Assembly (NCBI GenBank): GCA_012839115.1
Contig: DUNX01000049.1
Span: forward strand, 1 to 34,510
Length of the DNA stretch: 34,510 nucleotides
Direction of reading: 5' to 3'
From: Bacillota bacterium
GTDB taxonomy: Bacteria > Bacillota > UBA4882 > UBA10575
The notes beneath the pieces were generated by a model. It did not search any database and was not told the origin of the DNA. It was given only the letters and a program-made list of their open reading frames with translations. Below are positions 2,968 to 25,162 of this stretch, one piece after another. The position numbers and the translations under genes are program-made. Positions within the stretch are counted from its first letter, which is position 1, and each line of letters opens with the position of its first letter.

Positions 2968-3117
2968 CCTGTGATTGAAGGATATAAAGACACTTTTCCG
3001 CCGGAAAATCATGTCGGATTCGTTATGGTTATGAGGAAATACCTGTATTATAATATTCATTGTTGCAGAAAAGCTGCAGGAGAAAAAAGAAAAAGTTTCA
3101 GGGCGGAAGAAACTCCA

Positions 3118-3142
3118 ATGCGCACGCGCAATGCGCACGCGC
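3118..3142. repeat. Tandem direct repeat ATGCGCACGCGC, candidate operator
   Basis: Two exact 12-base copies (3118-3129 and 3131-3142) separated by one A, giving a 13-base period of alternating purine-pyrimidine character. They lie 70-95 bases upstream of the large SBP gene, in a gap between the AraC gene and the operon it may control. AraC-family proteins bind direct repeats, so this is a plausible site, although the period is shorter than usual. The rest of the gap 2968-3211 shows no gene. Confidence 0.35.
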
Positions 3143-3211
3143 GTAAACAAATTGGAGAATAAGAAATTAGCAATACAGATTTGATAAGTTAAGACCATGA
3201 GGGGGATGAGG

Positions 3212-6139
3212 ATGAAGAGGTTTTTACAAATATTACTTGTGGTGGTTTTCTTTTCCGTATTTATCTTCCCGTGGAGCACAAATATGCAATTGCAGGCGGA
3301 GGCTTCCGATTCCCCCCACTCCGAACTGGTGGAAAGATTGGAAGCCGTAGCTATCGGCAGCCGGGGAGATGATTATTTCGCATACCAGGCACAGTATGAA
3401 GGGTTTCCCAAGCCGGCGCGGGAGATTAAGATCGAGGTGGCCAACTTTAGCCGCGCCAGCCATGGCGTAGAGGTTTTGCAGGATTTTGCCGGCCGTCCCG
3501 GGCGGGCGGTAAAAACTAGTGAAGAAGGGTTTATTGAGTGGAAAGTAAATGTAGACACCCCCGGGCTTTACCAGATTAAGATCGAGTACTACCCGGTCGA
3601 AGGCAGGGGGGCCAGTATTGAGCGGGAGTTGTGGCTCAACGGCGAACTGCCCTTCTTTGAAGCCAGTCAGTTGATTATTAAGAGGGTCTGGACCGATGGC
3701 GGCCAGGTACGGCGGGACAACCGGGATAACGATATCCGGCCCGGGCAGGTGGAGACACCTTTCTGGCGGGAACTTTATTTGGCTGACTATAATACGGGTT
3801 ACTACCCCGAACCATTTCATTTCTATTTCCACGCCGGAGAAAACACCCTCCGTTTTACGGCGGTAAAAGAACCGTTGGTCATCGGCAGCATCACGCTTTG
3901 CCAGAAAAAAGCGGTTCCAACTTATGACGAATATCTCCGGGACCATTTGGCCAAGGGGCGCCGGCCGGTCGAAGGTCAATTCATAAAGGTCCAGGGGGAG
4001 TCGGCCCAATTCCGGTCGGAACCGACCCTTTATGCGATTAATGACCGAACTTCACCGACCACCGAGCCTTACCACCATTCCAAAATTCGCCTTAACGCCA
4101 TTGGCGGGTACCGCTGGAACCTTCCCGGCCAGTGGATTAAGTGGCGTTTTGAGGTGCCGGAGAGCGGGCTTTACAAGATCGTTTTCAAGGCCCGCCAAAA
4201 CTCGGTGCGGGGGTCCTATTGCAACCGGCGGCTCTTAATCAACGGTGAGGTTCCGTTTTTGGAAACCGATAATCTTGAGTTTAGATACAACAACAATTGG
4301 AATAATTATACAATTACGACCGCTGAGGGCGAACCCTGCCTCTTCTATTTGGAAAAGGGCGAAAACGAACTGCATATGGAGGTCACCCTGGGGCGCCTGG
4401 CGGATCTCCTCCGGGCGGTCGAGGACACCATCTTCCAGTTGAACAGGGCCTACCGGAAGATCCTGATGGTAACCTCGGCCAATCCTGATCCCTACCGTGA
4501 CTACCAATTGGATAAATTGATGCCGGATGTGATTGCGCTTTTAGGCAAGCAGGGGGCATTCCTCGATGCGCTGGCCGCGCAACTCCGGGACTACACCGGC
4601 GAACGGGGGACCCAGACAGCCATCCTTACGCAGATGGCCTACCAGTTAAGGGATATGGCCGATAAACCCTATACCATCCACCGGCGGATGAACTCCTTTA
4701 AAGAGAATATCGGCGCTCTCGGCGCCTGGCTCCGGGAGATGAAAGTCCAGCCCATAGATATAGATTACTTTGTTGTCGCCGCGCCCGAACAGAAAATCCC
4801 CCGGGCGGACGCGGGCTTTTTCGGAAAAATGTGGCATGAATTCCGAGGCATGATTGCCTCTTTCTTCGAAGATTACCAGTCCATCGGCGATGTTCATGGG
4901 GGTGAAGCCGTACGGGTCTGGGCGGTAACCGGGCGTGACCAGGCGCAGCTTCTCAAACAAATGATTGACGATACTTTCACCGCACAAACCGGGATCCCGG
5001 TAAATCTCCAGTATATCCAGCAACAGGTCTTGATGCCTGCGGTGGTGGCCGGGCGGGGCCCGGACGTGGCTTCGAATCTTTACCGGAACGACCCGATCAA
5101 TTACGCCATCCGTAACGCGGTGGTGGATCTTACCGAATTCCCCGATTTTTCCGGGGTGGAAAAGCGTTTCCATCCCAGCGCTATCCAACCGTTCCGTTTT
5201 GAAGGCGGTGTTTATGCTCTGCCGGATAACCAAACCTTCCCGGTGCTTTTTTACCGCAGCGATATTCTGGAGGAATTGGGAATTGATGTCCCGGAAACCT
5301 GGGATGACCTTTACCACATCCTGCCGGTTCTCCAAAAAAACCATCTGGAGTTTGGCATCCCCATCTCCGTCCAGTTGCAGGCGGACCCGTATGGTGGTCC
5401 GGAATTAGCCATGCAGTCATATGCTATTTTCCTGTTCCAATGGGGCGGAGAGCTCTACCGTGGGAACGGGATCGCCAGTGCCCTCGATTCTGAAGAGGCG
5501 ATTGGGGCCTTCCGCTTCTGGACCGAATTGTTCCTCAACTACGGCCTCCCGGTATGGTATAACTTCGCCAACCGGTTCCGCATCGGCGAGATGCCACTGG
5601 CTGTACAGGATTACCAGACCTATAACCAGTTAATTGTCTTTGCCCCGGAGATCAGGGGGTTGTGGGGGTTCGCCCCGGTACCCGGGGTCCGGCGCCCCGA
5701 CGGTTCCATCGATCGTTCCGTGGGCTCCAGCGCCATGGCGTCGATGATGATTAAAGCGACCAAAGATAAAGAGGCTTCTTGGGAGTTCTTGAAATGGTGG
5801 ACGAGTGCGGAGACCCAGGAACGGTTTGGCCGGGAGATGGAGACCCTGCTCGGCGCGGCCGCCCGCCACCCGACCGCCAATATGGAGGCGGTTTCCAGCC
5901 TGCCGTGGCCGCTCAAGGATTATAAGGCCCTCATGGACCAGTGGCAATGGGTTAAGGGAATTCAGGAAGTCCCGGGTGGTTATTTCACACCCCGGCATAT
6001 TACCAACGCCTTACGGAAAGTTATTTACCAAAAAGAAGACCCCCGGGAGACCTTGTTGGATTATGTTATTACCATCAATGATGAGTTAACCAGCAAACGC
6101 CTGGAATTCGGCCTTGAAACCCTGGAGGACAGAGAATAA
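3212..6139 (+). CDS. Large extracellular solute-binding protein with carbohydrate-binding-like N-terminal domains
   Basis: 975 residues from the ATG at 3212, which has AGGGGG six bases upstream. Two upstream in-frame ATGs (3197, 3206) lack a well-placed site. A signal peptide ends near residue 31 (AEA). Residues about 45-225 and 245-395 look like two beta-rich modules of the galactose-binding/CBM kind. Each has a phrase of the type 'W(K/R)..V..(P/T)GLY(Q/K)I' and an 'NGE(L/V)PF' motif, suggesting an internal duplication. A helical stretch (about 396-520) follows, then a family 1 sugar SBP domain (about 565-960) with GRGPDVA, FRFEGGVYALPDNQTF and EASWEFLKWWTSAETQERFG. Usual SBPs are 400-450 residues. 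There is no lipobox cysteine. Two permease genes follow directly, so it is probably the binding protein of that importer. The domain reading is by eye; the SBP part is sure. Confidence 0.9.
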   Translation: MKRFLQILLVVVFFSVFIFPWSTNMQLQAEASDSPHSELVERLEAVAIGSRGDDYFAYQAQYEGFPKPAREIKIEVANFSRASHGVEVLQDFAGRPGRAVKTSEEGFIEWKVNVDTPGLYQIKIEYYPVEGRGASIERELWLNGELPFFEASQLIIKRVWTDGGQVRRDNRDNDIRPGQVETPFWRELYLADYNTGYYPEPFHFYFHAGENTLRFTAVKEPLVIGSITLCQKKAVPTYDEYLRDHLAKGRRPVEGQFIKVQGESAQFRSEPTLYAINDRTSPTTEPYHHSKIRLNAIGGYRWNLPGQWIKWRFEVPESGLYKIVFKARQNSVRGSYCNRRLLINGEVPFLETDNLEFRYNNNWNNYTITTAEGEPCLFYLEKGENELHMEVTLGRLADLLRAVEDTIFQLNRAYRKILMVTSANPDPYRDYQLDKLMPDVIALLGKQGAFLDALAAQLRDYTGERGTQTAILTQMAYQLRDMADKPYTIHRRMNSFKENIGALGAWLREMKVQPIDIDYFVVAAPEQKIPRADAGFFGKMWHEFRGMIASFFEDYQSIGDVHGGEAVRVWAVTGRDQAQLLKQMIDDTFTAQTGIPVNLQYIQQQVLMPAVVAGRGPDVASNLYRNDPINYAIRNAVVDLTEFPDFSGVEKRFHPSAIQPFRFEGGVYALPDNQTFPVLFYRSDILEELGIDVPETWDDLYHILPVLQKNHLEFGIPISVQLQADPYGGPELAMQSYAIFLFQWGGELYRGNGIASALDSEEAIGAFRFWTELFLNYGLPVWYNFANRFRIGEMPLAVQDYQTYNQLIVFAPEIRGLWGFAPVPGVRRPDGSIDRSVGSSAMASMMIKATKDKEASWEFLKWWTSAETQERFGREMETLLGAAARHPTANMEAVSSLPWPLKDYKALMDQWQWVKGIQEVPGGYFTPRHITNALRKVIYQKEDPRETLLDYVITINDELTSKRLEFGLETLEDRE

Positions 6140-6162: not shown

Positions 6163-7128
6163 ATGCCGTCGCAACCCATGCAAACCTCGCTTTCCATGCC
6201 ATACAAGAGAAAACTGGCCGAGCGGGGTAGATTAGGAAGATTACTTGCGGAGATTAAGAAGAATAAGGTTTCCTATTTGTTCCTGGCCCCGTACGCCATC
6301 ATCTTTTTGTTTTTTACCGTCCTACCGGTTTTGATCTCCATTGGGTTCAGTTTCACCTATTATAATATCCTGGAACCACCCCAATGGATCGGTTGGCGCA
6401 ATTACATCAACCTGTTTTTGGCGGATGAGGTATTTCTCATCTCAATCAAAAACACCTTTTTGCTGGCGGCGATCACCGGCAGCCTGGGCTATTTTGCTTC
6501 TTTCTTCTTTGCCTGGCTGATCAATGAATTACCGCGGCGGATTAGGCCCCTTTTTGTCCTGGTCTTTTATGCCCCGGCTTTGGCCGGGTACGCTGTTGCC
6601 CAAATCTGGGGCATCCTCTTCAGTGGGGATGCCTACGGCTGGATGAACGGGTTTTTGATGAAGATTGGCTTCATCAGAGAGCCGATTTACTGGCTGACCG
6701 ACCCCAACTACATGCTGCCTGTCTTGCTCGTGGTCGTATTATGGATGAGCCTGAGCCATGGCTTTCTGGCTTTCGTCGCCGGCCTGCAGACTGTTGACCG
6801 CAGCCTCTACGAGGCCGGCTATACCGACGGGATCAGAAACCGCTGGCAGGAGCTTTGGTATATTACCCTCCCGTCAATGCGGCCACAGCTAATGTTTGGC
6901 GCGGTGATGTCGATTACGTCCTCCTTTGCCATCCATGATGCTTTGGTCCCGTTGGTCGGTTTTCCCAGTACGGACTATGCGGCTCATACCGTTGTCTCCC
7001 ATCTTGTCGACTACGGTACCTTCCGGTTTGAAATGGGATACGCCTCGGCCATTGCCACCGTGTTGTTCCTGGTAATGGTCGGGACCAACAAGATTGTCCA
7101 AAGATTGTTGAGAAAAGTGGGGCAGTGA
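6163..7128 (+). CDS. Sugar ABC transporter permease, MalF/UgpA type
   Basis: 321 residues with six predicted membrane helices; the first starts near residue 38 (YLFLAPYAIIFLFF). The EAA loop that docks on the ATPase is at residues 217-236 (EAGYTDGIRNRW... ending in TLP), with a Gly-for-Ala change at its third position. The start ATG has a GGGAG site seven bases upstream. It begins 23 bases after the large SBP gene and ends four bases before the partner permease, so all three are surely one operon. It forms a heterodimeric inner-membrane channel with the next gene. No ATPase is encoded nearby; MsmX/UgpC-like ATPases shared between sugar importers are commonly encoded elsewhere in related genomes. 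Confidence 0.95.
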   Translation: MPSQPMQTSLSMPYKRKLAERGRLGRLLAEIKKNKVSYLFLAPYAIIFLFFTVLPVLISIGFSFTYYNILEPPQWIGWRNYINLFLADEVFLISIKNTFLLAAITGSLGYFASFFFAWLINELPRRIRPLFVLVFYAPALAGYAVAQIWGILFSGDAYGWMNGFLMKIGFIREPIYWLTDPNYMLPVLLVVVLWMSLSHGFLAFVAGLQTVDRSLYEAGYTDGIRNRWQELWYITLPSMRPQLMFGAVMSITSSFAIHDALVPLVGFPSTDYAAHTVVSHLVDYGTFRFEMGYASAIATVLFLVMVGTNKIVQRLLRKVGQ

Positions 7129-7132
7129 GAAC

Positions 7133-7999
7133 ATGAAGATACTAAGACCAAGTAATCTCAGTCGTTCGGTTGGCGGGGACCTCCTCAACCTGTTTTTCCT
7201 GGTTTTGTGTGGTTTCCTGATGGCTTTGCCTTTGCTTTATACGATTTTCCAAGCATTGAAACCGCTGGACGAGATCTTTATCTTTCCACCCCGGTTTTAT
7301 GTGCGCAACCCGACACTGGATAACTTTGTGCAGCTCCTGGTAATGATGGGGGAATCGTGGGTGCCGTTTTCCCGTTATTTCTTTAACACCATCTTTGTCA
7401 CTGTTGCCGGTACCTTCGGCCATGTCATCATTGCGTCCATGGCCGCGTTCGTCCTTTCGAAGCATAAGTTTCCCGGACGAAACCTCTTCTTTAGCGTTGT
7501 CATTCTGGCTTTGATGTTTTCCTATCATGTCACCCAAATCCCCAACTATTTAATTATGGCCCGGATCAATTGGGTCGATACTTACCTGGCGCTCATCGTC
7601 CCCTACTTCTCGTATCCGCTGGGGTTGTTCCTGATGAAACAGTTTATGGAACAGATCCCCGACTCGCTGCTGGAGTCGGCCAGAATTGACGGGGCCGGCG
7701 AATTCAGGATTTTTTGGCAGATCGTAATGCCGTCGGTCAAACCAGCCTGGTTAACCCTGATTATCTTTATCTTCCAGCAACTCTGGACGATGCAAGGGGG
7801 AGTCTACATTTACAGTGAGCAACTGAAGACCCTCTCTTATGCCTTTAGCCAGATTCTCATAGGCGGGGCCATCACCATTGCCCGGGCAGGGGTAAGCGGA
7901 GCCGTAGGCTTGCTAATGATGATCCCCCCGATTGTGCTCTTTATTATTACCCAGAGCAATATTATGGAAACCATGGCCACTTCAGGTATTAAGGAGTAA
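7133..7999 (+). CDS. Carbohydrate ABC transporter permease, MalG/UgpE type
   Basis: 288 residues, six predicted membrane helices. A canonical EAA loop lies at residues 181-200 (ESARIDGAGEF... ending in VMP). The N-terminal phrase 'LPLLYTIFQALKPLDEIF' is typical of MalG-type subunits. It starts four bases after the MalF-like gene and is followed 12 bases later by the NHL-repeat gene. Its ribosome binding site is weak, so it is probably translated by coupling to the upstream gene. Role: second half of the inner-membrane channel served by the large SBP. Confidence 0.95.
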   Translation: MKILRPSNLSRSVGGDLLNLFFLVLCGFLMALPLLYTIFQALKPLDEIFIFPPRFYVRNPTLDNFVQLLVMMGESWVPFSRYFFNTIFVTVAGTFGHVIIASMAAFVLSKHKFPGRNLFFSVVILALMFSYHVTQIPNYLIMARINWVDTYLALIVPYFSYPLGLFLMKQFMEQIPDSLLESARIDGAGEFRIFWQIVMPSVKPAWLTLIIFIFQQLWTMQGGVYIYSEQLKTLSYAFSQILIGGAITIARAGVSGAVGLLMMIPPIVLFIITQSNIMETMATSGIKE

Positions 8000-8011: not shown

Positions 8012-9544
8012 GTGAACGCCAAATTAATCCATTGTTTAGTGCTGGCGCTGATTATTGCCGGTTGCTTCGCCTGCCTGCCGCCGGCAGTCCAGGCGCGGCT
8101 ACCCTACCATAGTTACACGTATGATTATTGGGGTGATGTCGTCTATTCCCCCGCCGCTTACCTGCCAAACCGTATAATTACCGGGGAAGACCTGGGGATT
8201 GGGGACTTGAGAACCCCTACGGATATTTTTATCGGTAAGGACGGTAAAATCTATATCCTTGATGCGGGGAACGGGCGGATTGTTGTCACCAATGACCGTT
8301 GGGAACTGGTCCGGGTGATCGACGGGTTTGAGAACAACGGCGTCCCCGACGGGTTTAACAACCCCAGCGGGATCTTTGTGACGGAAGAAGGCCATATTTA
8401 CGTGGCCGACACCGACAACAACCGTTTGGTGGAATTGGACCCGGCCGGGAATTTTCTCCGGGAGATCGGCCCGCCGGAATCCGATATCATCCAAGAGAGT
8501 TTTATTTATCAACCGACCAAACTGGTGGTAGACCGCGCGGGGCGGATTTATGTGGTGGCGCGTCATATGAACCAGGGTTTAATTGAACTGACACCGGACG
8601 GTCTTTTCCGCAGTTATATGGGGGCCACCCGGGTTGCCTGGAATCCGGTGGATTATTTCTGGAAAATGATCGCCACCCGGGAGCAACGGGAAAGGATGGC
8701 CCTCTTTGTCCCAACCGAATACAATAACCTCTGTATTGATGAGGAAGGTTTTATCTACGTAACCACCAGCGCTTTGAATGAGTGGGATATCCAACGGGCG
8801 ATTGGCGCCAGAAGCGAAGATGACCGTTATGCGCCGGTGCGCCGTTTGAACCTGATGGGTGATGATATTTTGCGTCGCCGGGGGTATTTCCCGCCGGTTG
8901 GGGATATCTTAATCGCCCGGAAAGGCTCGGTGCGCGGCCCGTCAATGCTGGTGGATGTGGCTGTTGATGACGAGTTCAGGATTTACAGTGTCCTGGACCG
9001 GCGCCGCGGCCGGATCTTCACGTATGACAGTGAAGGCAACCTCCTGTACATCTTCGGCGCCATCGGCGAGCGCTTCGGCAACTTCCGGAACCCGGTGGCC
9101 TTCGATTATCTTGGCGATAATATACTGGTCCTGGATTATGAGGCCGGTACGGTGACCGAGTTCGCAGTCACCGCCTATGGCCGGTTGATCCGGGAAGCGG
9201 TCCGCCTGCATTTTATCGGAAAGTATAATGAAGCGGCCGCGTGCTGGGAAGAAGTCCTGCTTCAGAACGCCAATTTTGAAATGGCCTATGTGGGAATTGG
9301 CCGTGCTCTTTTGCGGCAGGAAAAATATGAAGAGGCGCTGAAAAACTTTAAATTGGGCAACCACCGTAAATACTACTCCCGGGCCTTTTATTATCACCGG
9401 CGGGAAGTGATCGGCAGGAATTTCGGGCTGATCGTCGGGGTCCTGGTCGCCTTCGTACTTGCGCTTTATGTTATCGGTAGAGTACGGGAGAAAGGCCGGA
9501 AAAGCGCCTACGGGGAGTACCAAAGCGAGGTTGAAGAGATATGA
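8012..9544 (+). CDS. NHL-repeat protein with TPR segment and C-terminal membrane anchor
   Basis: 510 residues from a GTG start with GGGGGTAGGAG just upstream. The N-terminus is a signal sequence; it contains IAGC, a possible lipobox at Cys18, and also a signal peptidase I-like site (VQA). Residues about 60-200 and 305-390 carry NHL-type beta-propeller repeats (for example GKIYILDAGNGRIVV, GHIYVADTDNNRLVEL). Residues about 395-465 form TPR-like helices (GKYNEAAACWEEVL, EKYEEALKNF). A membrane helix at about 473-491 and a short charged tail end the protein. Propeller and TPR would therefore face outside the inner membrane. Its stop overlaps the start of the YIP1 gene (ATGA), so the two are translationally coupled. 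Function unknown; a scaffold or sugar-sensing role beside the importers is only inference. Confidence 0.88.
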   Translation: MNAKLIHCLVLALIIAGCFACLPPAVQARLPYHSYTYDYWGDVVYSPAAYLPNRIITGEDLGIGDLRTPTDIFIGKDGKIYILDAGNGRIVVTNDRWELVRVIDGFENNGVPDGFNNPSGIFVTEEGHIYVADTDNNRLVELDPAGNFLREIGPPESDIIQESFIYQPTKLVVDRAGRIYVVARHMNQGLIELTPDGLFRSYMGATRVAWNPVDYFWKMIATREQRERMALFVPTEYNNLCIDEEGFIYVTTSALNEWDIQRAIGARSEDDRYAPVRRLNLMGDDILRRRGYFPPVGDILIARKGSVRGPSMLVDVAVDDEFRIYSVLDRRRGRIFTYDSEGNLLYIFGAIGERFGNFRNPVAFDYLGDNILVLDYEAGTVTEFAVTAYGRLIREAVRLHFIGKYNEAAACWEEVLLQNANFEMAYVGIGRALLRQEKYEEALKNFKLGNHRKYYSRAFYYHRREVIGRNFGLIVGVLVAFVLALYVIGRVREKGRKSAYGEYQSEVEEI

Positions 9545-10164
9545 AATACCTGGACAGCCTGAAGTTTTCGCTTTACGCAATTTTTCACCCCTTCAAGGGT
9601 TTCTGGGACCTGAAACACGAGAAAAGAGGGAGCATCTCGGCGGCCTTGACCTTTCTTGTGCTGCTGATTGTCACCTATATTTTGCGGCGGCAATACACGG
9701 GTTTTATTTTCAACGAGAATGACCCGAAAGAGCTGAATGTTTTCATTGAGATCATCAGTGTCCTCCTGCCCTTTTTCCTCTGGACCACAGCCAATTGGGC
9801 TATAACCACTTTGATGGAAGGGGAAGGAAGCTACAGGGATATCGTGATCGCCACCGCCTATGCCTTGGTCCCGCTCATCCTTATTAACCTCCCGTTGATC
9901 CCCTTCAGCAGGATCATTAATATGGAGGAGGGGGCCTTTTATTTCTTCTTTACCTCTGTTTCCGTGCTTTGGAGCGGGGTCCTGATCCTGGCGGGGTTAT
10001 CGGTCACCCACCAATACACCATGGGGAAGTCTGTCTTTACCAGCCTCCTGTCAGTGGTGGGAATGGGTTTGATGATCTTTATTGGCTTATTGGTTTTCAG
10101 CCTGTTACAGCAGATGATTAGTTTTGTCTATACAATATACCGGGAAATTGCATTTCGACTTTAA
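9541..10164 (+). CDS. YIP1-family five-helix membrane protein
   Basis: 207 residues. Five hydrophobic segments lie at about 30-50, 68-90, 100-125, 131-154 and 165-198, the pattern of bacterial YIP1-domain proteins. A soluble N-terminus carries 'FHPFKGFWDLKHEKRGS', which resembles the family's usual opening. It overlaps the NHL-TPR gene by four bases and ends 18 bases before the DUF5696 gene. The three are therefore co-transcribed and probably act together at the inner membrane. No catalytic motif is visible. The biochemical role of bacterial YIP1 proteins beside sugar importers is not known to me. Confidence 0.85.
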   Translation: MKYLDSLKFSLYAIFHPFKGFWDLKHEKRGSISAALTFLVLLIVTYILRRQYTGFIFNENDPKELNVFIEIISVLLPFFLWTTANWAITTLMEGEGSYRDIVIATAYALVPLILINLPLIPFSRIINMEEGAFYFFFTSVSVLWSGVLILAGLSVTHQYTMGKSVFTSLLSVVGMGLMIFIGLLVFSLLQQMISFVYTIYREIAFRL

Positions 10165-10182: not shown

Positions 10183-12801
10183 ATGAAAACCCGATCTTTT
10201 ATGGTGATTGCCTTTATAATTGTCTTGGTGGCCGGCGCCGGAGGTCTTCTCTTCCGCCCTGCCACTGACATCGCTGCGGAAGAGGGTTTGCCGGCGCCTG
10301 CCGCCGGCGGAGAAACGCCCGCCGGCAATTCGCCGGTAACAGGGGGCGCGCCACCGGTTTTGGACGCCCTGGAAAAGGTGGCGGAGAATGAATTTCTCGC
10401 CCTCTATTTCTCGGAAAAAACCACCGAAGTGGCGGTACTGAAGAAAAAAACCGGTGAAATATGGTACAGCAACCCTCCCGGCCGGGCAGCGGATCCGGTG
10501 GCCGTGGGGATTAACAAAACCAAACTGGGATCGCAATTGAGCATTACTTTCTACACCCCGCACGCCCACAGAAGGACGATGGATAACGCCAGCGAGAGTA
10601 TTGAGTACGGGCAATTTGAAGCCGAGAAGCTGGCAAACGGGGTAAAAGTTACTTATACCATTGGCAAAAAAGAAGAAGTCTATATTATCCCGGAAAAAAT
10701 CACCGGCGAACGCTTTGATCAGGTTTCGGAGAAGATTAGCTCCTCGCAACAAAGGAACTTGCAACGGCGCTATATCAAAATTGACCTGAATGAAGTGGAG
10801 GACCGCAGGGAAAGGCAGAAACTCGTGAGTGAGCACCCGGCATTGCGCCGGCATGACGTGGTCTATGTCCTGCGGCCGAATTTGAGCCTCTTTGTCCTGC
10901 GTCAACTGGACGAGATTTTTGTGGAGGCCGGGTATACGCTGGAAGAAGTCAACGAAGACCACAGGGAAAACGAAGTGCCCGAGAAGGAAGTACCCAAGGA
11001 TGTTTTTACAATTCCGCTTTATTACACCTTGGACGGGGAGAACCTCATGGTGACCATACCCAGTAATGAAGTGGTCTATCATTCTTCCTACCCGTTGACT
11101 GAGATTAAAGTCCTGGAGTTCTTTGGCGCCGCCGGGCCCGGGACCGAGGGGTATGTTTTCGTTCCCGACGGGTCCGGGGCCCTAATCCATCTGAATAACG
11201 GAAAAACCCGGCACCGTGCATATTACGGCCCCGTTTACGGGCGGGATTACGCCCGGCAATACACGGAGATTTTTGAGGAACGCGAACAGGTTTATCTCCC
11301 GGTCTACGGCATGAAACAGGGTGACCAGGCCTTTTTTGCCATTATTGAAAAGGGTGACGCCCTGGCTACGATCATTGCTGATGTCGCCGGCAGGATCCAT
11401 TCTTATAATACGGTCTGCGCGGAATTCAGCTCCGTTGCCCACGGCACGATTGACCTGACCACACTGGCCGGGAATAACGTGATCAAGGTATACCAGAGGC
11501 GGATTACGCAAGGGGATTTCCAGATCCGTTATGCCTTTTTGAGCGGGGAGAAAGCGGATTATGTGGGCATGGCCGAGTATTACCGGGATTATTTGCTCAA
11601 GAAAGGCGTTTTAAAAACCGAGCGTACCGCCGGTGCAGTACCGTTCTACCTTGAAATGGTGGGCGGAATTGACAAGATCAAACCGTTCCTCGGGGTTCCG
11701 GCCCGCCGGATTGAGGCGTTGACCACTTTCAGCGAAGCCAGAGAGGTGGTTGACAGCCTGCTGGCGTCGGATGTTACCAACCTTAAGCTGCGTTATACCG
11801 GGTGGTTTAACGGCGGGCTCCGCCAAGGTTTGCCGAGTAGTATTAATATTTTAAATGAACTCGGCGGACGGGCCGGCTTCACCCGGCTGGCCAGATATTT
11901 AGAAGCGAACAATGTGGAATTCTACCCATCCGTTACCTTTGAATACGCCAAAAAAGCCGGGATCTTGAGGGGCTTTAACACGCGGACCGCCGCCTCCCGT
12001 TTTATCAACCAGGATGTCGGTGTCTTGTATGATATCAACTTCGCAACCTATCAGGAAGACAAGGAAAAACGGGCGCAATACATGGTCTGTCCTTCCCGGA
12101 TCGGGCGGTATGTAGACCGTTTTTTGCGCCGGTACCGGTCTTTGGATGTTAAAGGTCTTTCTTTGACCACCATGGGACAGGATTTGAACGCCAATTACCG
12201 GGAGAAACGGCTGGTCGACCGGGCCCAGGCCCAGCAGTATATCGGGGGAGAACTGGCGAAGATGACCGGTTCCGGATACCGGTTGCTGGCCGAAGGGGTT
12301 AACGTCTACGCCCTGGCCCATACAGCGCATATCCTCAATATGCCGCTGGATTCCAACCACTACCTGATTACCGACGAAGGTATCCCCTTCTACCAGATCG
12401 TCACCTGCGGGCATGTTGATTATGCCGGGGAACCGGTTAATCTCGCCGGTGATCCGCGGCGGGCGTTTTTGAAAACCATCGAAACCGGTGGCGGTCTTTA
12501 TTTCACCTGGATTTACCGGGATAACTCCCTGATTAAAGAGACCGATTACGACTACCTGTATTCGGTAGAATATAAAAAGTGGTTCGATCAGGCGGTGGCA
12601 TTTTACCGCGAAGCCCAGGAAGTACTGGGGGATATACGGGGGCAACGCATTATTGACCACCGGCGGTTGGCCGATAATGTCTATAAAGTAACCTTTGAAA
12701 AGGGGAAAACCATCATGGTTAACTACAACCGGGAACCGGTTACTGTGGAAGGAATAAGACTGGCGGCTGAAAGTTATCATGTGTTACGGGAGGGCAGGTG
12801 A
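10183..12801 (+). CDS. DUF5696 protein, probable exported glycosidase-like enzyme
   Basis: 872 residues with a signal sequence or N-terminal anchor (about 7-24) followed by a Pro/Ala/Gly-rich linker to about residue 55. The beta-rich N-terminal half (about 60-400, with 'FFGAAGPGTEGYVFVPDGSGALIH') and an alpha/beta C-terminal half (about 480-800) match my memory of DUF5696 proteins, which are found beside sugar ABC transporters in Paenibacillus-like genomes and look like glycoside hydrolases of TIM-barrel type. Acidic residues suited to catalysis occur (e.g. near FEYAKKAG and TDEGIPFYQIV), but I cannot assign catalytic ones. The start ATG has AAGGAAGGGG upstream. It ends in TGA at 12799, just before the next permease. 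Substrate unknown; a polysaccharide or its oligosaccharides is inference from context. Confidence 0.85.
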   Translation: MKTRSFMVIAFIIVLVAGAGGLLFRPATDIAAEEGLPAPAAGGETPAGNSPVTGGAPPVLDALEKVAENEFLALYFSEKTTEVAVLKKKTGEIWYSNPPGRAADPVAVGINKTKLGSQLSITFYTPHAHRRTMDNASESIEYGQFEAEKLANGVKVTYTIGKKEEVYIIPEKITGERFDQVSEKISSSQQRNLQRRYIKIDLNEVEDRRERQKLVSEHPALRRHDVVYVLRPNLSLFVLRQLDEIFVEAGYTLEEVNEDHRENEVPEKEVPKDVFTIPLYYTLDGENLMVTIPSNEVVYHSSYPLTEIKVLEFFGAAGPGTEGYVFVPDGSGALIHLNNGKTRHRAYYGPVYGRDYARQYTEIFEEREQVYLPVYGMKQGDQAFFAIIEKGDALATIIADVAGRIHSYNTVCAEFSSVAHGTIDLTTLAGNNVIKVYQRRITQGDFQIRYAFLSGEKADYVGMAEYYRDYLLKKGVLKTERTAGAVPFYLEMVGGIDKIKPFLGVPARRIEALTTFSEAREVVDSLLASDVTNLKLRYTGWFNGGLRQGLPSSINILNELGGRAGFTRLARYLEANNVEFYPSVTFEYAKKAGILRGFNTRTAASRFINQDVGVLYDINFATYQEDKEKRAQYMVCPSRIGRYVDRFLRRYRSLDVKGLSLTTMGQDLNANYREKRLVDRAQAQQYIGGELAKMTGSGYRLLAEGVNVYALAHTAHILNMPLDSNHYLITDEGIPFYQIVTCGHVDYAGEPVNLAGDPRRAFLKTIETGGGLYFTWIYRDNSLIKETDYDYLYSVEYKKWFDQAVAFYREAQEVLGDIRGQRIIDHRRLADNVYKVTFEKGKTIMVNYNREPVTVEGIRLAAESYHVLREGR

Positions 12802-12806
12802 GACCG

Positions 12807-13793
12807 ATGAAATTTAATTTCCAAGATTTCCTGCTAAAGGTGAAGAAGGGGCTTGGCGACCTAAAACTGAAGCTGAACTTCGGCGGCAAAGAAACAACAA
12901 CGCATATAGCCATGGAAAAGAGGAGAGCGATTGCGGGTTATGTTTTTATCTCCCCGTTTTTACTCGGGCTGATCTTCTTTTTCCTCTACCCGTTTCTGCA
13001 ATCAGTAATCTTTAGTTTTAACAGCATCCAAATTGGTACCCAGGGCTACGAAATGACCGGGGTCGGGTTTGGCAATTACCACCGGGCCTTTATGGTGCAC
13101 CCGACTTTCCGCCGGGTTTTGGTGGAATCGATCATCCAAATGATCACCGACGTACCGCTCATCATCATCTTTAGCTTTTTTGCAGCCAATTTGATTAACC
13201 AGAAATTCCGGGGGCGGGCGGTGGCAAGGGCCATCTTCTTCCTCCCCGTCATCCTGACTTCCGGAATTATCCTGGCGGTTGAGAATAACGATTTGCTTCT
13301 GGGGATTATGTCCGGCGCTATCCAGCCGGATACCGCGGCCGGCGCGGTCCGCGCTTTGGAACTACGTACCCTGTTGCTCGAGACCAGGCTGCACCCGCGG
13401 TTTGTCGGGTATATTATCGATGCGGTCGACCGTTTATATGAGATCGTTAAGGCTTCAGGGGTCCAGATTTTAATCTTCCTCGCCGGTTTACAGACCATCT
13501 CCCCGTCCCTCTATGAAGCCTCGACCATGGAGGGGGCAACCGGGTGGGAGAACTTCTGGAAGATCACATTCCCGATGATTAGCCCTTTGATCTTGGTGAA
13601 CACAGTCTACACCGTAATTTACTCGTTCACCAACCCCAACAACCCGGTAATGGAGATCATCAAGAACACGGCTTTTGCCGAGTCAAGGTTTGGCTTCAGT
13701 TCCGCCATTGCCTGGGTGTATTTCCTGGTTATTTTAGGGATCCTGGGCATCCTGATTGGGGTCATCTCCAGGTGGGTCTTTTATCATGACTAG
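12807..13793 (+). CDS. Second sugar ABC permease, MalF/LacF type
   Basis: 328 residues, six predicted membrane helices, EAA loop at residues 237-256 (EASTMEGATGWENF...). I chose the ATG at 12807, which has AGGTGAG four bases upstream and begins just after the DUF5696 stop. The GTG at 12798 overlaps that stop and is too close to its purine run. Compared with usual MalF-like proteins it has an extra amphipathic stretch between the helices (about residues 165-215), rich in Arg/Leu/Glu. Together with the next gene it forms a second importer. Six SBPs lie downstream and probably feed it. Confidence 0.94.
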   Translation: MKFNFQDFLLKVKKGLGDLKLKLNFGGKETTTHIAMEKRRAIAGYVFISPFLLGLIFFFLYPFLQSVIFSFNSIQIGTQGYEMTGVGFGNYHRAFMVHPTFRRVLVESIIQMITDVPLIIIFSFFAANLINQKFRGRAVARAIFFLPVILTSGIILAVENNDLLLGIMSGAIQPDTAAGAVRALELRTLLLETRLHPRFVGYIIDAVDRLYEIVKASGVQILIFLAGLQTISPSLYEASTMEGATGWENFWKITFPMISPLILVNTVYTVIYSFTNPNNPVMEIIKNTAFAESRFGFSSAIAWVYFLVILGILGILIGVISRWVFYHD

Positions 13794-13859: not shown

Positions 13860-14858
13860 ATGAAGGCCTTATCCTTAGAAAAAGCAGGACAGGCGATTGA
13901 GACCAAAGAACAGCGGGCAAACTGGCGGCATTCCGTTTTTTTCCAGGCCAAAAAGTTTTTATGGGTGACTGTACGCACCATTTTAGTGGCAGGGATCTGT
14001 TTTTTGATCCTCTACCCCCTTGCCGCCAAGCTATCCGTCTCCGTCATGGCCGAGCGTGACCTCTATGATATTACCGTTTGCTATGTTCCCAAACATTTCA
14101 CTTGGGAAAACTACCAGGTTGTCTGGAAACACATGGGTTTTCCCGGGACCTTTTTCAACTCGCTTTGGCTGTCGTTGCTCACCGGTGTTCTCCAGATTAT
14201 CTCTTGTACGCTGGTGGGTTACGGGTTTGCCAGGTTTAACTTTCCCTTTAAGAAATTGCTCTTTGGGATGGTCCTCGTGATGCTGGTCGTTCCACCGCAG
14301 ACGATCATGGTCCCGATGTTTTTACGTTTCCGCTTTTTTGATATTTTTGGGGTTATAAAACTGATCAGCGGAAATACAATTAACCTGATCGATACGTTTT
14401 GGCCGTTCGTTCTGACCTCGCTTACCGGCACCGGCCTCCGGAACGGGCTGTATATTTATATGATGCGGCAGTTTTTCCGGGGGGCGCCCAAGGAGCTTGA
14501 AGAATCGGCTTATGTGGACGGGGCCGGCCCTTATAAAACTTTTTACTATATCATGTTACCCATTGCCATCCCGATGATGGTTACGATCTTTTTATTCTCC
14601 TTTGTTTGGCAGTGGACTGATACCTTTTACACCACCCTTTTCTTGGAAAGGATGGCGACCCTGCCGACAGTCCTTTCCTCTTTAGCCGTATCCATTAATT
14701 ATCAAGAATTTGGCCCGATGGCGACGATGAGCCCGGCGTATGCTTCCATGCTTAACAACACCGGCAGTGTTCTGGTAATCCTGCCGTTGATCATTATCTA
14801 CCTCATCGCCCAGCGGTACTTCGTGGAGAGTATCGAAAGGTCGGGGATTATCGGTTAA
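13860..14858 (+). CDS. Second carbohydrate ABC permease, MalG type
   Basis: 332 residues, six predicted membrane helices, canonical EAA loop at residues 215-234 (ESAYVDGAGPYKTF... ending in MLP). A cytoplasmic N-terminus of about 35 residues is longer than usual. GAGGTGAGA just upstream supports the ATG. It follows its partner permease by 66 bases and is followed after 155 bases by the first of six SBP genes. It completes the second importer of the locus, again without an ATPase gene. Confidence 0.95.
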   Translation: MKALSLEKAGQAIETKEQRANWRHSVFFQAKKFLWVTVRTILVAGICFLILYPLAAKLSVSVMAERDLYDITVCYVPKHFTWENYQVVWKHMGFPGTFFNSLWLSLLTGVLQIISCTLVGYGFARFNFPFKKLLFGMVLVMLVVPPQTIMVPMFLRFRFFDIFGVIKLISGNTINLIDTFWPFVLTSLTGTGLRNGLYIYMMRQFFRGAPKELEESAYVDGAGPYKTFYYIMLPIAIPMMVTIFLFSFVWQWTDTFYTTLFLERMATLPTVLSSLAVSINYQEFGPMATMSPAYASMLNNTGSVLVILPLIIIYLIAQRYFVESIERSGIIG

Positions 14859-15013: not shown

Positions 15014-16342
15014 ATGCAAAAAAGGAGCAAAGTTTTCCTGATCATCACCGGTGGTTTGCTTCTGCTGGCACTGGTGGCCTGCGCAGTCACAGTCGGCGGT
15101 AAGGAAAAGTACAATTTTGGCGGGCGGACGATTACTTACTCTGCCTGGTGGGAATTGCGCCCGGACCCCGGGGCTTCCGTGGAGATGGAGCGGCAAGCCC
15201 GGCGGGTAGCTGAGGTGGAAAAGAAATATAATGTAAAGATCAATTATGTCAATATCCCCTGGGGGGAGTACCTGGCCAGATATATTACAACGGTGATGGC
15301 CGGCGACAGCATGGGTGATATTGTCAATGTCGAGGCCAACTGGTTCTACCCAACGCTGCTGTTGAATAATTTCTGTACAAACCTGAGCGAATTAGGGGTA
15401 TTTGATTTCACCGCTGAGAAATTCCAGCGGGAAACGGTGGAATTTGGTACATACCGCGGCGGTGTCTATGCGTACGATGTGGGCCGGCTCTATCCCCGGG
15501 GAGTTCTTTATTGGAATAAGAGCATGTTTGCCCGGGAAGGCCTGCCCGATCTATATGAACTTTTCTTCAACTATAAGTGGACCTGGGAGAAAATGCTTGA
15601 ATTTGCAAAAGCGTTGACTAAAGATATTGACGGCGACGGTATTATTGACCAGTGGGGGATCGGCGGCGCCGCCCAACGGCTGGAACGGGCTTTTGTCATT
15701 TCCAACAACGCCCATTATATTGATGTCTCCGATAAGGATAACCCCAAATTTGCCCTGACCCACCCCAATGCCATCGAGGCACTCCAGGCGCACCAGGATT
15801 TCATCCTCAAGCACCAGGTAGTATCGATGACACCGGAGGGGGCGCCTTGGGATTACAATGTTCAGAGCTTTATTGAGGGTAAGCTCGGGATGCTGGTCGG
15901 GCAAATATGGAAGATCGACCAGATAAAAGAGGACATGAAAGACGAATACGGGATCGTTTTATTCCCGATGGGCCCGAAGGCCAAAGAGTACGCCTCCGAA
16001 TTGACCGGCCATTTGGTGAGGACTATGCCGATAACAGTGAAGAACCCCAAAGAAGTGGCGATTGTGGAGGATGCCATCACCGAACCGCACCCGGACGAAG
16101 ACCCCGACGATTGGCGGGAATACTACGAATTGCGGGTGACCGACGAGGAGTCGATCGCAACGGTAGAGTTGCTCTGGGATAAACAGCTCAGCGTCTTTAA
16201 TCTCCAGTGGGCTTTCGGAATCGACGATGTTTTCTATACCATCGAGCATGAGGTAATGACCGGGAATAAAGCGCCCACTGCGGCCGTGGAAGAGTATGCG
16301 CAGGAAGCCCAGATGCGGATTAATGACTCGTTGCGGTTTTAA
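15014..16342 (+). CDS. Extracellular solute-binding protein, array copy 1 (lipoprotein)
   Basis: 442 residues. The signal peptide ends in LVAC, a good lipobox with Cys22-23 as the lipid-modified residue; it is the only copy in the array with one. The mature protein is a family 1 sugar SBP. A DIDGDGIID loop at residue 204 resembles the calcium-binding loop of alginate and related SBPs, and the C-terminus has the array-wide signature EAQMRINDSL. AGGAGG at 14997-15002 lies 11 bases before the ATG; an ATG at 15004 is too close to it. It belongs to sequence group A with copies 2 and 3 (WWELRPDPG near the N-terminus, acidic stretch HPDEDPDDWREYYE near the C-terminus). It likely serves the permease pair just upstream. 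Confidence 0.95.
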   Translation: MQKRSKVFLIITGGLLLLALVACAVTVGGKEKYNFGGRTITYSAWWELRPDPGASVEMERQARRVAEVEKKYNVKINYVNIPWGEYLARYITTVMAGDSMGDIVNVEANWFYPTLLLNNFCTNLSELGVFDFTAEKFQRETVEFGTYRGGVYAYDVGRLYPRGVLYWNKSMFAREGLPDLYELFFNYKWTWEKMLEFAKALTKDIDGDGIIDQWGIGGAAQRLERAFVISNNAHYIDVSDKDNPKFALTHPNAIEALQAHQDFILKHQVVSMTPEGAPWDYNVQSFIEGKLGMLVGQIWKIDQIKEDMKDEYGIVLFPMGPKAKEYASELTGHLVRTMPITVKNPKEVAIVEDAITEPHPDEDPDDWREYYELRVTDEESIATVELLWDKQLSVFNLQWAFGIDDVFYTIEHEVMTGNKAPTAAVEEYAQEAQMRINDSLRF

Positions 16343-16359
16343 TTCAAGTTCGTAGAAGG

Positions 16360-16401
16360 TTCGCCCAGTTTCCCCCGGTTTTCAGGGGGAAACTGGGCGA
16401 A
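16360..16401. other. Very strong hairpin between SBP copies 1 and 2
   Basis: A 17-bp perfect stem (TTCGCCCAGTTTCCCCC with its complement) and an 8-base loop. No T-run follows on the plus strand, and the next gene starts within about 12-21 bases, so it is not a classical terminator. It resembles the mRNA-stabilising or partial-termination hairpins found after binding-protein genes, as between malE and malF. Confidence 0.8.
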
Positions 16402-16412
16402 AATGAAAGGGG

Positions 16413-17753
16413 ATGGTCGTCATTACGAAACAGCGAAAATCCTTCATTACCTGCCTGGGATTGACGGCGGCTCTGTTGGTCCTGGCCCTGGCCGGCGCAG
16501 TTGCCGGCAGCAAGGAGAAATATGATTTTGGCGGCCGGACGGTTACATATTCCGCCTGGTGGGAATTGCGCCCGCAGCCCGGTGCTTCGGTAGAGATGGA
16601 CCGGCAGATCCGGCGGGTGACCGAGGTGGAAAAGAAATACAACGTAAAGATTGATTACGCAAATATCCCCTGGGGGGAATACCTGGCCCGGTATATCACG
16701 ACGGTGATGGCCGGGGACAGCATGGCCGACATCGCCTGTGTTGAAGTCAACTGGTTTTACCCCACACTGCTGTTGAATAATTTCTGCCTTCCCATCTCCT
16801 CACTGGGTGTCTTTGATTTTAATGACGAAAAATTCCAACGCGAAACCGTCACCTTTGGTGAGTACAACGGAGAAATTTATTGCTACGAAATCGGTAATGT
16901 ATACCCCCGGGGTGTGGTCTTTTTCAACAAGACCATGTTTGCGCGGGAAGGCATCACCGACATGTACGACGTCTTCTTTAACTATGAGTGGACCTGGGAT
17001 AAGATGCTGGAATACGCCAAAAAATTGACCAGGGATACCGACGGCGACGGTATTATTGACCAGTGGGGCCTCGGCGGCGGGACCGGCCGGGTTTGGCGGG
17101 GCTTTATCATCTCCAACGGCGCCAATTTTATTGATATTTCCGACAAAAGCAAGCCCCGTTTTGCCTTGGGCGACCCCAACGCCATCGCGGCTCTCCAGGC
17201 CTACCAGGATTTCACCCTCAAACACCAGGTAATCCTGGTTCCGCCGGAGGGCGCGCCGTGGGATTATGCAATCGAGGCTTTTATCGAAGGAAAAGTAGGG
17301 ATGCTTGTCGGGCAGATCTACAAGCTCCACAGCTTGAAAACAAAAATGCAAGATGAATACGGCGCAGTTTTATTCCCGATGGGCACCAGCATGAAGGAGT
17401 ATACATCGGAGCTTACCGGTCATTTTGTAAAAGTGATGCCAATCACCATAAAAAACCCCAAAGAAGTGGCGATAGTGGAAGATGCCATGACCGAACCGCA
17501 TCCGGATGAAGACCCCGACGACTGGCGGGAGTATTACGAGATGCGGATGACCGATGAAGAGTCCATCGAGACGGTGAAGATGATCTGGGATAAACAACTC
17601 AGTGTCTTTAATCTCCAATCGGCCTTTGATGTCATGGATATCTTCTATACCTTGGAATGGGAACTCCAGACCGGCGCCAAAACCCCGCAGGCGGCGGTGG
17701 AAGAGTATGCCCAGGAAGCGCAGATGCGGATTAATGATTCGCTAATCTTCTAA
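16413..17753 (+). CDS. Extracellular solute-binding protein, array copy 2 (mosaic)
   Basis: 446 residues from the ATG at 16413, but AAAGGGG abuts that codon directly. An ATT at 16422 would have a normal nine-base spacing and gives an N-terminus that aligns better with copies 1 and 4, so the true start may be non-standard. The signal peptide has no lipobox and probably ends near AGA/VAG. Calcium-loop-like DTDGDGIID begins at residue 208. The ends of the protein match group A (copies 1 and 3). The middle, from about 16919 to 17210 (REGITD, TGRVWRGFIISNG, LQAYQDF), matches copy 4 of group B, suggesting gene conversion. It probably delivers a related ligand to the same permeases as copy 1. Confidence 0.94.
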   Translation: MVVITKQRKSFITCLGLTAALLVLALAGAVAGSKEKYDFGGRTVTYSAWWELRPQPGASVEMDRQIRRVTEVEKKYNVKIDYANIPWGEYLARYITTVMAGDSMADIACVEVNWFYPTLLLNNFCLPISSLGVFDFNDEKFQRETVTFGEYNGEIYCYEIGNVYPRGVVFFNKTMFAREGITDMYDVFFNYEWTWDKMLEYAKKLTRDTDGDGIIDQWGLGGGTGRVWRGFIISNGANFIDISDKSKPRFALGDPNAIAALQAYQDFTLKHQVILVPPEGAPWDYAIEAFIEGKVGMLVGQIYKLHSLKTKMQDEYGAVLFPMGTSMKEYTSELTGHFVKVMPITIKNPKEVAIVEDAMTEPHPDEDPDDWREYYEMRMTDEESIETVKMIWDKQLSVFNLQSAFDVMDIFYTLEWELQTGAKTPQAAVEEYAQEAQMRINDSLIF

Positions 17754-17870
17754 TAACATGCAAAGCAGGATTGCGGGTTCGCCGGGCTATGGGGTTCTTT
17801 TTTCAGCTGGCTAAAAGCATGACTACGGCAAGATAGAATAATATAAAAAAAGGGGGGGTCAGTAAGGGAA

Positions 17871-19196
17871 ATGAAAAATTGGTTTCGTGTAATTGTTATT
17901 GGCGGATTGGTTCTGCTCATATTGGCGGTTACCATTACGGCCGGGGGAAAAGAGGAGAAACATAATTTTGGCGGGCGGACAATTACTTACTCCGCCTGGT
18001 GGGATTTGCGCCCGGATCCCGGGGTTTCCCTGGAGATGGAGCGGAAGGCCCGGCGGGCTGCTGAGGTGGAAAAGAAATATAACGTAAAGATCGATTACGT
18101 CAATATCCCCTGGGGGGAATACCTGGGCAGGTACATCACGACCGTCATGGCCGGCGACCGCATAGCGGATATCGCCATTGTGGAGGCTGAATGGTTTTAT
18201 CCCACGCTTTTGATGAACAATTTCTGTACAAACTTGAGCGATTTAGGGGTATTTGATTTTACCACTGAAAAATTTGAACCGGTTACGGTAAATCTCGGCA
18301 CTTACCGCGGAAAGGTCTACGCTTATGAAACCGGCCGGCTCTACCCCCGGGGCGTCCTTTTCTGGAACAAGAGTATGTTCGCCCGGGAAGGCCTGCCCGA
18401 TTTATATGAGACATTCTTTAACTATGGGTGGACCTGGGACAAAATGCTCGAATTTGCAAAAGCATTGACAAAAGACACCGACGGAGACGGTGTAATTGAC
18501 CAGTGGGGGATTGGTGGTACCGCCCAAAGGCTGGAACGGGGTTTTGTCATCTCCAACAACGCTCATTATATAGATATCTCCGATTTTGACAATCCAAAAT
18601 TCGGCCTGACCCACGCCAATGCCATCGATGCGCTCCAGGCGCACCAGGACTTTATCCTCAAGCACCAGGTGGTATTGATGCCGCCGGAGGGGGCGCCTTG
18701 GGATTACAACGTTCATAGCTTTATCGAAGGCAAACTCGGGATGCTGGTCGGGCAGTTTTGGAAGATCAACGACTATATGAAAGGGAACATGCAGGACGAA
18801 TACGGGATCGTTTTATTCCCGATGGGACCGAAAGCGAAGGAGTATACCTCTGAATTGACGGGACACAATTTCAAGACTATGCCGGTATCGGTGAAGAACC
18901 CCAAAGAAGTGGCGATTGTGGAGGATGCCATGACCGAACCGTTCCCGGATGAAGGCCCCGACGACTGGCGGGACTACTACGAATTAATGGTCACCGACGA
19001 AGAGTCGATCAAGACTGTCGAGATGATCTGGGAGAAACAGCTGGGTGTCGTTAATCTCCAATGGGCATTCGGGATCAACGATATCTTCTACACCCTCGAG
19101 TGGGAGGTAATGACCGGGAATAAAACGCCCACGGCCGCTGTGGAAGAGTTTGCACAGGAAGCCCAGATGCGGATTAATGACGCCTTGTCATTCTAA
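17871..19196 (+). CDS. Extracellular solute-binding protein, array copy 3
   Basis: 441 residues. The signal sequence lacks a cysteine; cleavage is possible near ITA. Group A sequence: WWDLRPDPG near the N-terminus, DTDGDGVID loop at residue 202, acidic PFPDEGPDDWRDYYE near the C-terminus, and the EAQMRINDAL signature. It is closest to copy 1 by eye (AQRLERGFVISNNAHYID against AQRLERAFVISNNAHYID). The gap from copy 2 is 117 bases with only weak secondary structure and a run of seven G at 17852-17858. AAGGG lies close before the ATG. Confidence 0.94.
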   Translation: MKNWFRVIVIGGLVLLILAVTITAGGKEEKHNFGGRTITYSAWWDLRPDPGVSLEMERKARRAAEVEKKYNVKIDYVNIPWGEYLGRYITTVMAGDRIADIAIVEAEWFYPTLLMNNFCTNLSDLGVFDFTTEKFEPVTVNLGTYRGKVYAYETGRLYPRGVLFWNKSMFAREGLPDLYETFFNYGWTWDKMLEFAKALTKDTDGDGVIDQWGIGGTAQRLERGFVISNNAHYIDISDFDNPKFGLTHANAIDALQAHQDFILKHQVVLMPPEGAPWDYNVHSFIEGKLGMLVGQFWKINDYMKGNMQDEYGIVLFPMGPKAKEYTSELTGHNFKTMPVSVKNPKEVAIVEDAMTEPFPDEGPDDWRDYYELMVTDEESIKTVEMIWEKQLGVVNLQWAFGINDIFYTLEWEVMTGNKTPTAAVEEFAQEAQMRINDALSF

Positions 19197-19252
19197 GTTT
19201 CCATATGTTCGCCCTTAAAAAATATATATAAAATAAATGAGGAGGGATTGCT

Positions 19253-20599: not shown

Positions 20600-20669
20600 T
20601 CGCCGGTTACATGCAGCGATCGATCTCGCAACCTGTTTTGTAACCCTGGTAATCTGTTTCCTTTGTGAT

Positions 20670-20703
20670 GGCCGGAAGAGCGGAGCTAGACGCTCTTCCG
20701 GCC
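20670..20703. other. 13-bp perfect hairpin, gap 4/5
   Basis: GGCCGGAAGAGCG and its exact complement around an 8-base loop. No T-run follows, so it is more likely a stabilising or processing element than a full terminator. The counterpart at 22297-22332 has a different stem sequence but the same geometry. Confidence 0.8.
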
Positions 20704-20707
20704 CTTA

Positions 20708-20777
20708 GGCGCCGGGTTTGCCCTGACTTTGCTCGTCCACGCCGTCTTTCGCGTGACGCATTCGCAAGCCCGGCGCC
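20708..20777. other. Long-range hairpin 2, gap 4/5
   Basis: The 14-base arms at 20708-20721 and 20764-20777 pair with one G-U wobble and enclose about 42 bases. The counterpart in the next gap (22340-22349 with 22398-22407) pairs perfectly over 10 bp, with the wobble replaced by an A-T pair. Confidence 0.65.
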
Positions 20778-20883
20778 GGTATTTTCCAGACCGTTCCCGG
20801 AGAAGGATCCGTTTCCACTATGCCGGTCATTGCCTGCAGAGGGCCGGCTTATGGGAAGGCAGAGAGAAAAAGGGGGGTTACAC

Positions 20884-25146: not shown

Positions 25147-25162
25147 AAAGGGGGGGAGAGGG

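Follow-up and report, generated by a model that had tools for sequence, protein, structure and literature searches.

A solute-binding protein with two N-terminal CBM6/35-type modules heads a conserved import operon in Bacillota

Described sugar receptors and the architecture of BIG

A single two-lobed domain is the usual picture of the receptor of an ABC sugar importer, and the family-1 solute-binding proteins (SBPs), among them the beta-1,2-glucooligosaccharide-binding protein Lin1841 (5ysb) and MalE, have the same fold as the C-terminal domain of the protein described here (BIG). Additional glycan-binding domains beside a glycan importer are found in a system that works in a comparable way, namely that of SusD, SusE and SusF, the surface glycan-binding proteins of Bacteroidota. 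There, the transport is TonB-dependent, whereas the transporter associated with BIG is of the ABC type, and the two types are unrelated. In Bacillus subtilis, YesO is the pectin-oligosaccharide SBP of a plant-polysaccharide ABC importer (PMC7596534); judged from its genomic context, BIG would be like YesO in role, and the excerpted description of YesO makes no mention of extra modules.

The window, i.e. the whole stretch of DNA that was analysed (34,510 nucleotides of contig DUNX01000049.1, assembly GCA_012839115.1, from a Bacillota bacterium), encodes BIG as a family-1 extracellular solute-binding protein of 980 aa when read from 3197, and of 975 aa when read from its likely start at 3212. 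The later start, which the sequence-only reading had used, is favoured because AGGGGG lies 6 bases 5' of the ATG at 3212 and none precedes 3197, and it is probably the true one. The observation that the protein has more than twice the usual length was likewise borne out: it is 2.2 times as long as the sibling SBPs in the window, five of which span 441-448 aa (the sixth ORF comprises 519 aa). Pfam recognises only the C-terminal part of BIG, by a match of SBP_bac_1 (PF01547) to residues 585-875 (E 2.3e-21, 77.5 bits versus a cut-off of 26 bits). In the AlphaFold2 model (residues 36-980, 76 aligned sequences; mean pLDDT 89.6, pTM 0.86) two modules, M1 and M2, are followed by a helical domain and the SBP domain:

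3197-6139, + strand: BIG, solute-binding protein with N-terminal CBM6/35-type modules (ORF, SBP_bac_1, full-length relatives, model)
3212-3301, + strand: hydrophobic signal or anchor segment, without lipobox in the window copy (hydropathy)
3419-3907, + strand: M1, CBM35-like beta module, residues 75-237, with the invariant W190 (profiles, model, conservation)
3968-4390, + strand: M2, CBM35-like beta module, residues 258-398, with W368 at the sugar-stacking Trp position (profiles, model, conservation)
4391-4876, + strand: helical domain between M2 and SBP, residues 399-560 (model secondary structure)
4907-6136, + strand: SBP domain with the family-1 sugar-binding fold, residues 571-980 (PF01547; Z to 5ysb)

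The SBP domain is modelled in the two-lobed SBP fold, and a structure search with the whole model placed it nearest to oligosaccharide binders (Z 38.4 to 5ysb, with an rmsd of 2.7 over 371 aligned residues and 22 % identity). Like the genes of the family-1 sugar SBPs, the BIG gene adjoins two CUT1 permease genes. Unlike Lin1841 and MalE, BIG carries a 500-residue N-terminal extension, consisting of the two beta modules and the helical domain, and its relatives usually lack a lipobox: a lipobox-like pattern occurs in 11/79 of them, and the remaining relatives have a hydrophobic N-terminus that would serve as an anchor or as a signal to be cleaved off. The helical domain, the wide spread of the architecture and the position of BIG at the head of a conserved operon had all been overlooked in the sequence-only reading. 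In the limited collection of literature searched, papers on other transporters came up but none describing BIG, and the NCBI label in both plasmid records that encode it is 'extracellular solute-binding protein'.

Homology and conservation of the two N-terminal modules

That the N-terminal half holds two related beta-rich modules, as had been proposed, agrees with the roughly 10-13 strands that each of them has in the AlphaFold2 model and with the homology between them. The phrases said to be shared are real (PGLYQI...NGELPF in M1, SGLYKI...NGEVPF in M2), but the alternative given as P/T should read P/S. The local alignment of M1 and M2 scored 91, where 1000 shuffles averaged 30 and never exceeded 59, and the profile-profile comparison (hhalign, 39 sequences each) gave a probability of 99.7 % with E 1.6e-26; on these alignments the modules are homologous and not similar by chance. 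The M2 profile matched the solved CBM35 domains 5x7g (E 1.3e-7, spanning positions 50-145 of 146), 3wnl (E 0.0012) and 2w47 (E 0.0055), and the matches of the M1 profile to solved structures were marginal (2vzp, E 0.015; 2w47, E 0.022), where we take 2w47 and 2vzp to be CBM35 domains.

The Pfam CBM35 cut-off (PF16990) was passed by no module when the members were scanned singly (39 for M1 and 39 for M2). At E <=0.1, i.e. far below that cut-off, PF16990 was matched by 2/39 of the M2 members (best 0.0045) and 15/39 of the M1 members (best 0.0075); Golvesin_C and CBM6 matched the modules as weakly as CBM35 did, and the Pfam scan of the full-length window BIG returned no CBM match. The three kinds of weak match would fit one common galactose-binding-like superfamily. 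Since no module passes the CBM35 cut-off, an outright CBM35 label was rejected, and M1 and M2 are classified from their profiles as CBM6/35-type modules outside the named families. Homology (the M2-CBM35 profile match) and site residues (the aromatics described below) give good support to the earlier view of these modules as carbohydrate-binding-like, which the Pfam cut-off does not.

The strand content and order of M1 and M2 in the model fit a beta-jelly-roll. Because the N-terminal half was searched only within the whole model, its fold assignment derives from predicted strands and sequence profiles: the whole-model search of the PDB gave SBP-fold rows only, which filled the lists, and what a viral structure library yielded were low-TM-score matches to tail proteins, several of them named as carbohydrate-binding.

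The best match of M2, 5x7g, is CBM35-1 of the cycloisomaltooligosaccharide glucanotransferase of Paenibacillus sp. 598K, in which, according to the excerpted source, Trp507 is the canonical sugar-stacking residue and Trp515 belongs to a second site (PMC5408701). In the profile alignment, with a numbering offset of 19 that was deduced from the fit of both Trp residues, Trp507 aligns with W368 of M2 and Trp515 falls on a non-aromatic column. M2 therefore shares the aromatic Trp507 position with this domain, but differs from it in that Trp515 is not kept, in that it stays below the Pfam cut-off, and in that its fusion partner is an SBP and not an enzyme. W190 of M1 in turn falls on W368 in the M1-M2 profile alignment. 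Position 368 is W in 49, Y in 26 and F in 1 of the 76 relatives, and position 190 is W in all 76, so that the residue is aromatic throughout in both modules. Conserved aromatics are few, yet not unique to these two positions, as 7 of the 163 columns of M1 and 8 of the 141 columns of M2 have an aromatic residue in 75 or all of the 76 rows.

With moderate confidence, we read BIG as a CUT1 receptor with a glycan-holding N-terminal arm that would hand sugar over to the adjacent permeases (P1 and P2, see below). The M1-M2 homology, the match of M2 to CBM35, the aromatic Trp position and the SBP fold closest to oligosaccharide binders all favour such an arm; the missed Pfam cut-off, the marginal M1 matches and the outcome of the whole-model and viral fold searches count against it. 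A further point against it is that M1 and M2 are conserved to nearly the same degree as the SBP domain, although the hydrolases encoded nearby vary widely, a pattern that might indicate contact with another protein instead of a substrate-tuned CBM. It is indeed conceivable, if rather unlikely, that the CBM-like modules bind the DUF5696 protein, the NHL/TPR protein or the permeases encoded downstream, and thereby assemble one membrane complex without binding sugar. The missed cut-off would suit such docking, as would three further residues of M1 (R163, D174 and N178) that are each invariant in 76/76, but docking as such does not need an aromatic residue at the stacking position of both modules in every relative.

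Operon, DUF5696 partner and distribution

The gene order in the window is AraC, BIG, P1, P2, NHL/TPR, Yip1, DUF5696, P3, P4 and six small SBPs:

2008-2967, + strand: AraC-type regulator upstream of the operon (PF12833)
6163-7128, + strand: P1, CUT1-type permease (PF00528)
7133-7999, + strand: P2, CUT1-type permease (PF00528)
8012-9544, + strand: NHL-propeller/TPR protein, exported, membrane helix at the C-terminus near residues 465-483 (Pfam, hydropathy)
9541-10164, + strand: Yip1-domain membrane protein with 5 predicted helices (PF04893)
10183-12801, + strand: DUF5696 protein, predicted GH129-like fold (PF18952, model, profile)
12798-13793, + strand: P3, CUT1-type permease of the second importer (PF00528)
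13860-14858, + strand: P4, CUT1-type permease of the second importer (PF00528)
15014-23862, + strand: six tandem paralogous SBPs, at 15014, 16413, 17871, 19253, 20665 and 22519 (PF01547)

The two adjacent BPD_transp_1 permease genes that mark a CUT1 importer are thus present (6163-7128 and 7133-7999). Among the window ORFs scanned, ABC_tran gave no above-cut-off match, so that no importer ATPase gene was recognised in the operon; in the CUT1 class such a gene is optional in the operon and a shared ATPase encoded elsewhere is common, and at one locus (L154) a ugpC gene adjoins the operon copy. The six small SBPs that follow the second permease pair are 58-84 % identical pairwise, and a congener contig (L033) carries a similar array.

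Elsewhere, the usual order is SBP-BIG-perm-perm-NHL/TPR-(Yip1)-DUF5696-perm-perm, usually with the BIG architecture at the head. The window's own proteins were compared by blastp to the 66 loci that extend 7 kb or further downstream of BIG (some of them close relatives and hence not independent; left out were the window, L064, L026, L027, L028, L033, and L105, where the BIG ORF went unrecognised). This recovered P1 in 62, P2 in 61, DUF5696 in 61, P4 in 58, P3 in 57, NHL in 56 and Yip1 in 39 of these loci. At L154 (18394-20553) the NHL/TPR-TM and Yip1 parts form a single fused gene, which suggests that the separate proteins may interact elsewhere. Both the conservation of these partners and the fusion are in line with a glycan-holding arm as part of an import machinery. 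The TPR and NHL folds are, at the same time, common interaction surfaces, a circumstance that would also suit docking. A divergent operon copy on L154 (24933-29353) adjoins genes for LLM-class flavin oxidoreductases, which hints that the substrate there may be an unusual one, for example of the sulfonate type.

Regulator genes lie beside many copies, e.g. the AraC gene in the window, a histidine kinase with a response regulator at L153, and a cluster resembling LacI-type regulators (not Pfam-checked) in 22 loci. BIG might therefore be pictured as a sensor that reports its ligand to regulators via the NHL/TPR-TM and Yip1 proteins, import being secondary. We consider this very improbable: the permease genes are kept as constantly as the rest of the operon, and the type of regulator varies between loci. 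A 13-base direct repeat upstream of BIG (at 3117 and 3130; window 3117-3142) was rejected as an AraC site, as it is absent in the congeners L064, L032 and L033, of which the first two are the same contig.

The model of the DUF5696 protein (pLDDT 89.7) matched six GH129 or GH129-like entries with Z 29.2-30.2 over 560-583 residues, the next rows having Z of about 20. NagBb (GH129, 5wzq) scored Z 30.2 with 568 aligned residues and an rmsd of 3.9, and DagB (GH129-like, 5opq) Z 29.8 with 583 aligned residues and an rmsd of 3.8. The protein is accordingly modelled with a GH129-like fold; identity to NagBb and DagB is about 15 %, the likeness residing in the fold and in the profile (match to 8rzg, E 1.8e-9). 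The catalytic Asp of GH129 is given in the source excerpt as Asp435 in NagBb and Asp486 in DagB (PMC5698469). Position 671 of the DUF5696 protein, which from its position alone we would guess to be the equivalent of DagB Asp486, is Asp in 50/55 aligned proteins and Asn in the window copy; the latter may therefore have lost hydrolysis, a point that counts against the glycan-holding reading. No paper under the name DUF5696 was found in the limited collection of literature searched.

Among 61 near genomes, full-length BIG relatives are encoded in G001, G004 (two), G009 and G049, and a contig-cut copy in G002. When 398 genomes drawn over the phylum were searched, 43 matched the N-terminal half at E <=1e-20, and 38 of these, from 16 families, did so strongly (E <1e-60). 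Strong DUF5696 matches (E <1e-140) occurred in 36 genomes, all within the 38 strong-BIG genomes, which leaves G129 and G178 without one (Fisher p 3e-49, not corrected for relatedness; weak matches, with E >1e-6, in nine further genomes were left out of the count). This near-obligate co-occurrence fits a concerted action of arm and enzyme-like partner, and also a physical contact between the two. Neither is served by the weaker, stand-alone N-terminal halves without SBP in the other five of the 43 genomes (G035, G081, G119, G152 and G181), near which no operon gene was recognised. Stand-alone proteins resembling M1, M2 and the helical domain lie at L147 (8178-9809), L148 (5154-6743), L149 (980-2584) and L150 (7128-8474), with no importer gene recognised nearby, and G035 encodes at least 13 SBPs that resemble the SBP domain of BIG.

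The scan of named genomes yielded at least 80 loci, with 271 candidates confirmed, and the carriers among the matches listed include Paenibacillus, Cohnella, Lederbergia, Gracilibacillus, Caldicoprobacter, Lachnospiraceae, Halanaerobiales and Limnochordia. A local fusion or misassembly was rejected as the origin of the architecture, given the strong relatives in 16 sampled families, in named isolates and in two finished plasmid records. Within the limited collection of literature searched, the recurring import system headed by BIG is apparently undescribed, and its return in distant relatives suggests a machine for the uptake of sugars of plant type.

Cell envelope, substrate and proposed mechanism

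The window genome encodes Omp85 (3 matches) and LpxC, and genes for a secretin and for a T2SS ATPase lie in the window itself; therefore the organism is probably diderm and BIG probably periplasmic. (The stretch with the secretin and the type II/IV secretion ATPase, 28967-33353, agrees with an outer membrane.) This bears directly on the sequence-only reading, in which the modules could grip a polymer (here taken as a polysaccharide, insoluble or polymeric, beyond the cell surface) while the SBP domain takes the released oligomers. The CBM35-type homology and the plant-polymer hydrolase genes beside some relatives speak for such a grip, and so does the fact that many carriers (Paenibacillus, Cohnella, Lederbergia) are monoderm, where BIG would face outward. 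In the window organism, however, polymers would be out of reach of a periplasmic protein, and the architecture is the same in both kinds of cell. Polymer gripping is thus unlikely in this organism, and we regard it as an improbable explanation; work near the membrane, for which contact with polymers is not needed, fits best with a periplasmic setting here and the same protein in monoderm genera, and the capture of imported oligosaccharides near the membrane fits better than gripping.

Neighbouring enzymes were considered as a guide to the substrate. GH43 and pectinesterase genes lie beside the BIG relative at L026, an arabinofuranosidase gene beside that at L029, and a GH43 gene adjoins the copy of a rumen Butyrivibrio; at seven further loci, GH10, GH115, GH95, GH26 with CBM35, GH3, GH53, GH2, GH38 and GH123 adjoin. 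Ten of the neighbour genes had been hand-picked for their CAZyme look, and 9/10 matched GH families (the one at L072 matched none). Such neighbours are in keeping with a glycan-related role of BIG, but the attempt to derive the substrate from them was rejected: because the GH families differ, no single polymer follows, and the mix would instead reflect related sugars or paralogues with differing specificity. Among the ORFs scanned in the window, there is no GH gene besides DUF5696.

Taken as a glycan-holding arm, the N-terminal half of BIG would consist of M1 and M2, both of the CBM6/35 type, and of a helical spacer that separates them from an ordinary oligosaccharide-binding SBP domain. The N-terminal signal or anchor would set the beginning of the polypeptide at the inner membrane, on the outward-facing side. 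There the Trp platforms of M1 and M2 could hold an oligosaccharide, or a longer glycan by its end, near the SBP domain, which would then close on the held sugar and deliver it to P1/P2. Trimming or recognition of the glycan chain could fall to the DUF5696 protein, and keeping the parts together at the membrane to the NHL/TPR-TM and Yip1 proteins; the second importer (P3/P4 with the small SBPs) could take up shorter products. In this mechanism the binding of sugar, its hand-over, the roles of the partners and the class of substrate are what we infer, in distinction to the architecture, the homologies of M1 with M2 and of M2 with CBM35, the conservation of the operon and the co-occurrence with DUF5696, which were observed. 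More tentatively, the whole operon could encode an undescribed membrane-bound machine for glycan capture and import across Bacillota, in which the CBM-armed receptor, two coupled importers, the GH129-like DUF5696 protein and an NHL/TPR-Yip1 scaffold act as one complex.

Compared with the usual picture of a single two-lobed receptor, BIG represents a large and conserved family with modules of a glycan-binding type inside the receptor itself, which nearly always travels with an enzyme-like DUF5696 partner. If the modules bind sugar, ABC importers would gain a glycan-holding arm of their own, and a testable role would follow for DUF5696 and for the Yip1 and NHL partners. The carriers include soil, rumen and uncultured bacteria, several of which have plant-polymer hydrolase genes beside the operon.

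Beyond the small SBP genes, at window positions 24283-28017, consecutive genes encode an ABC-2 permease, a protein with ABC_transp_aux (PF09822) and one with DUF4340, a layout which we take to be that of a gliding-type ABC exporter.
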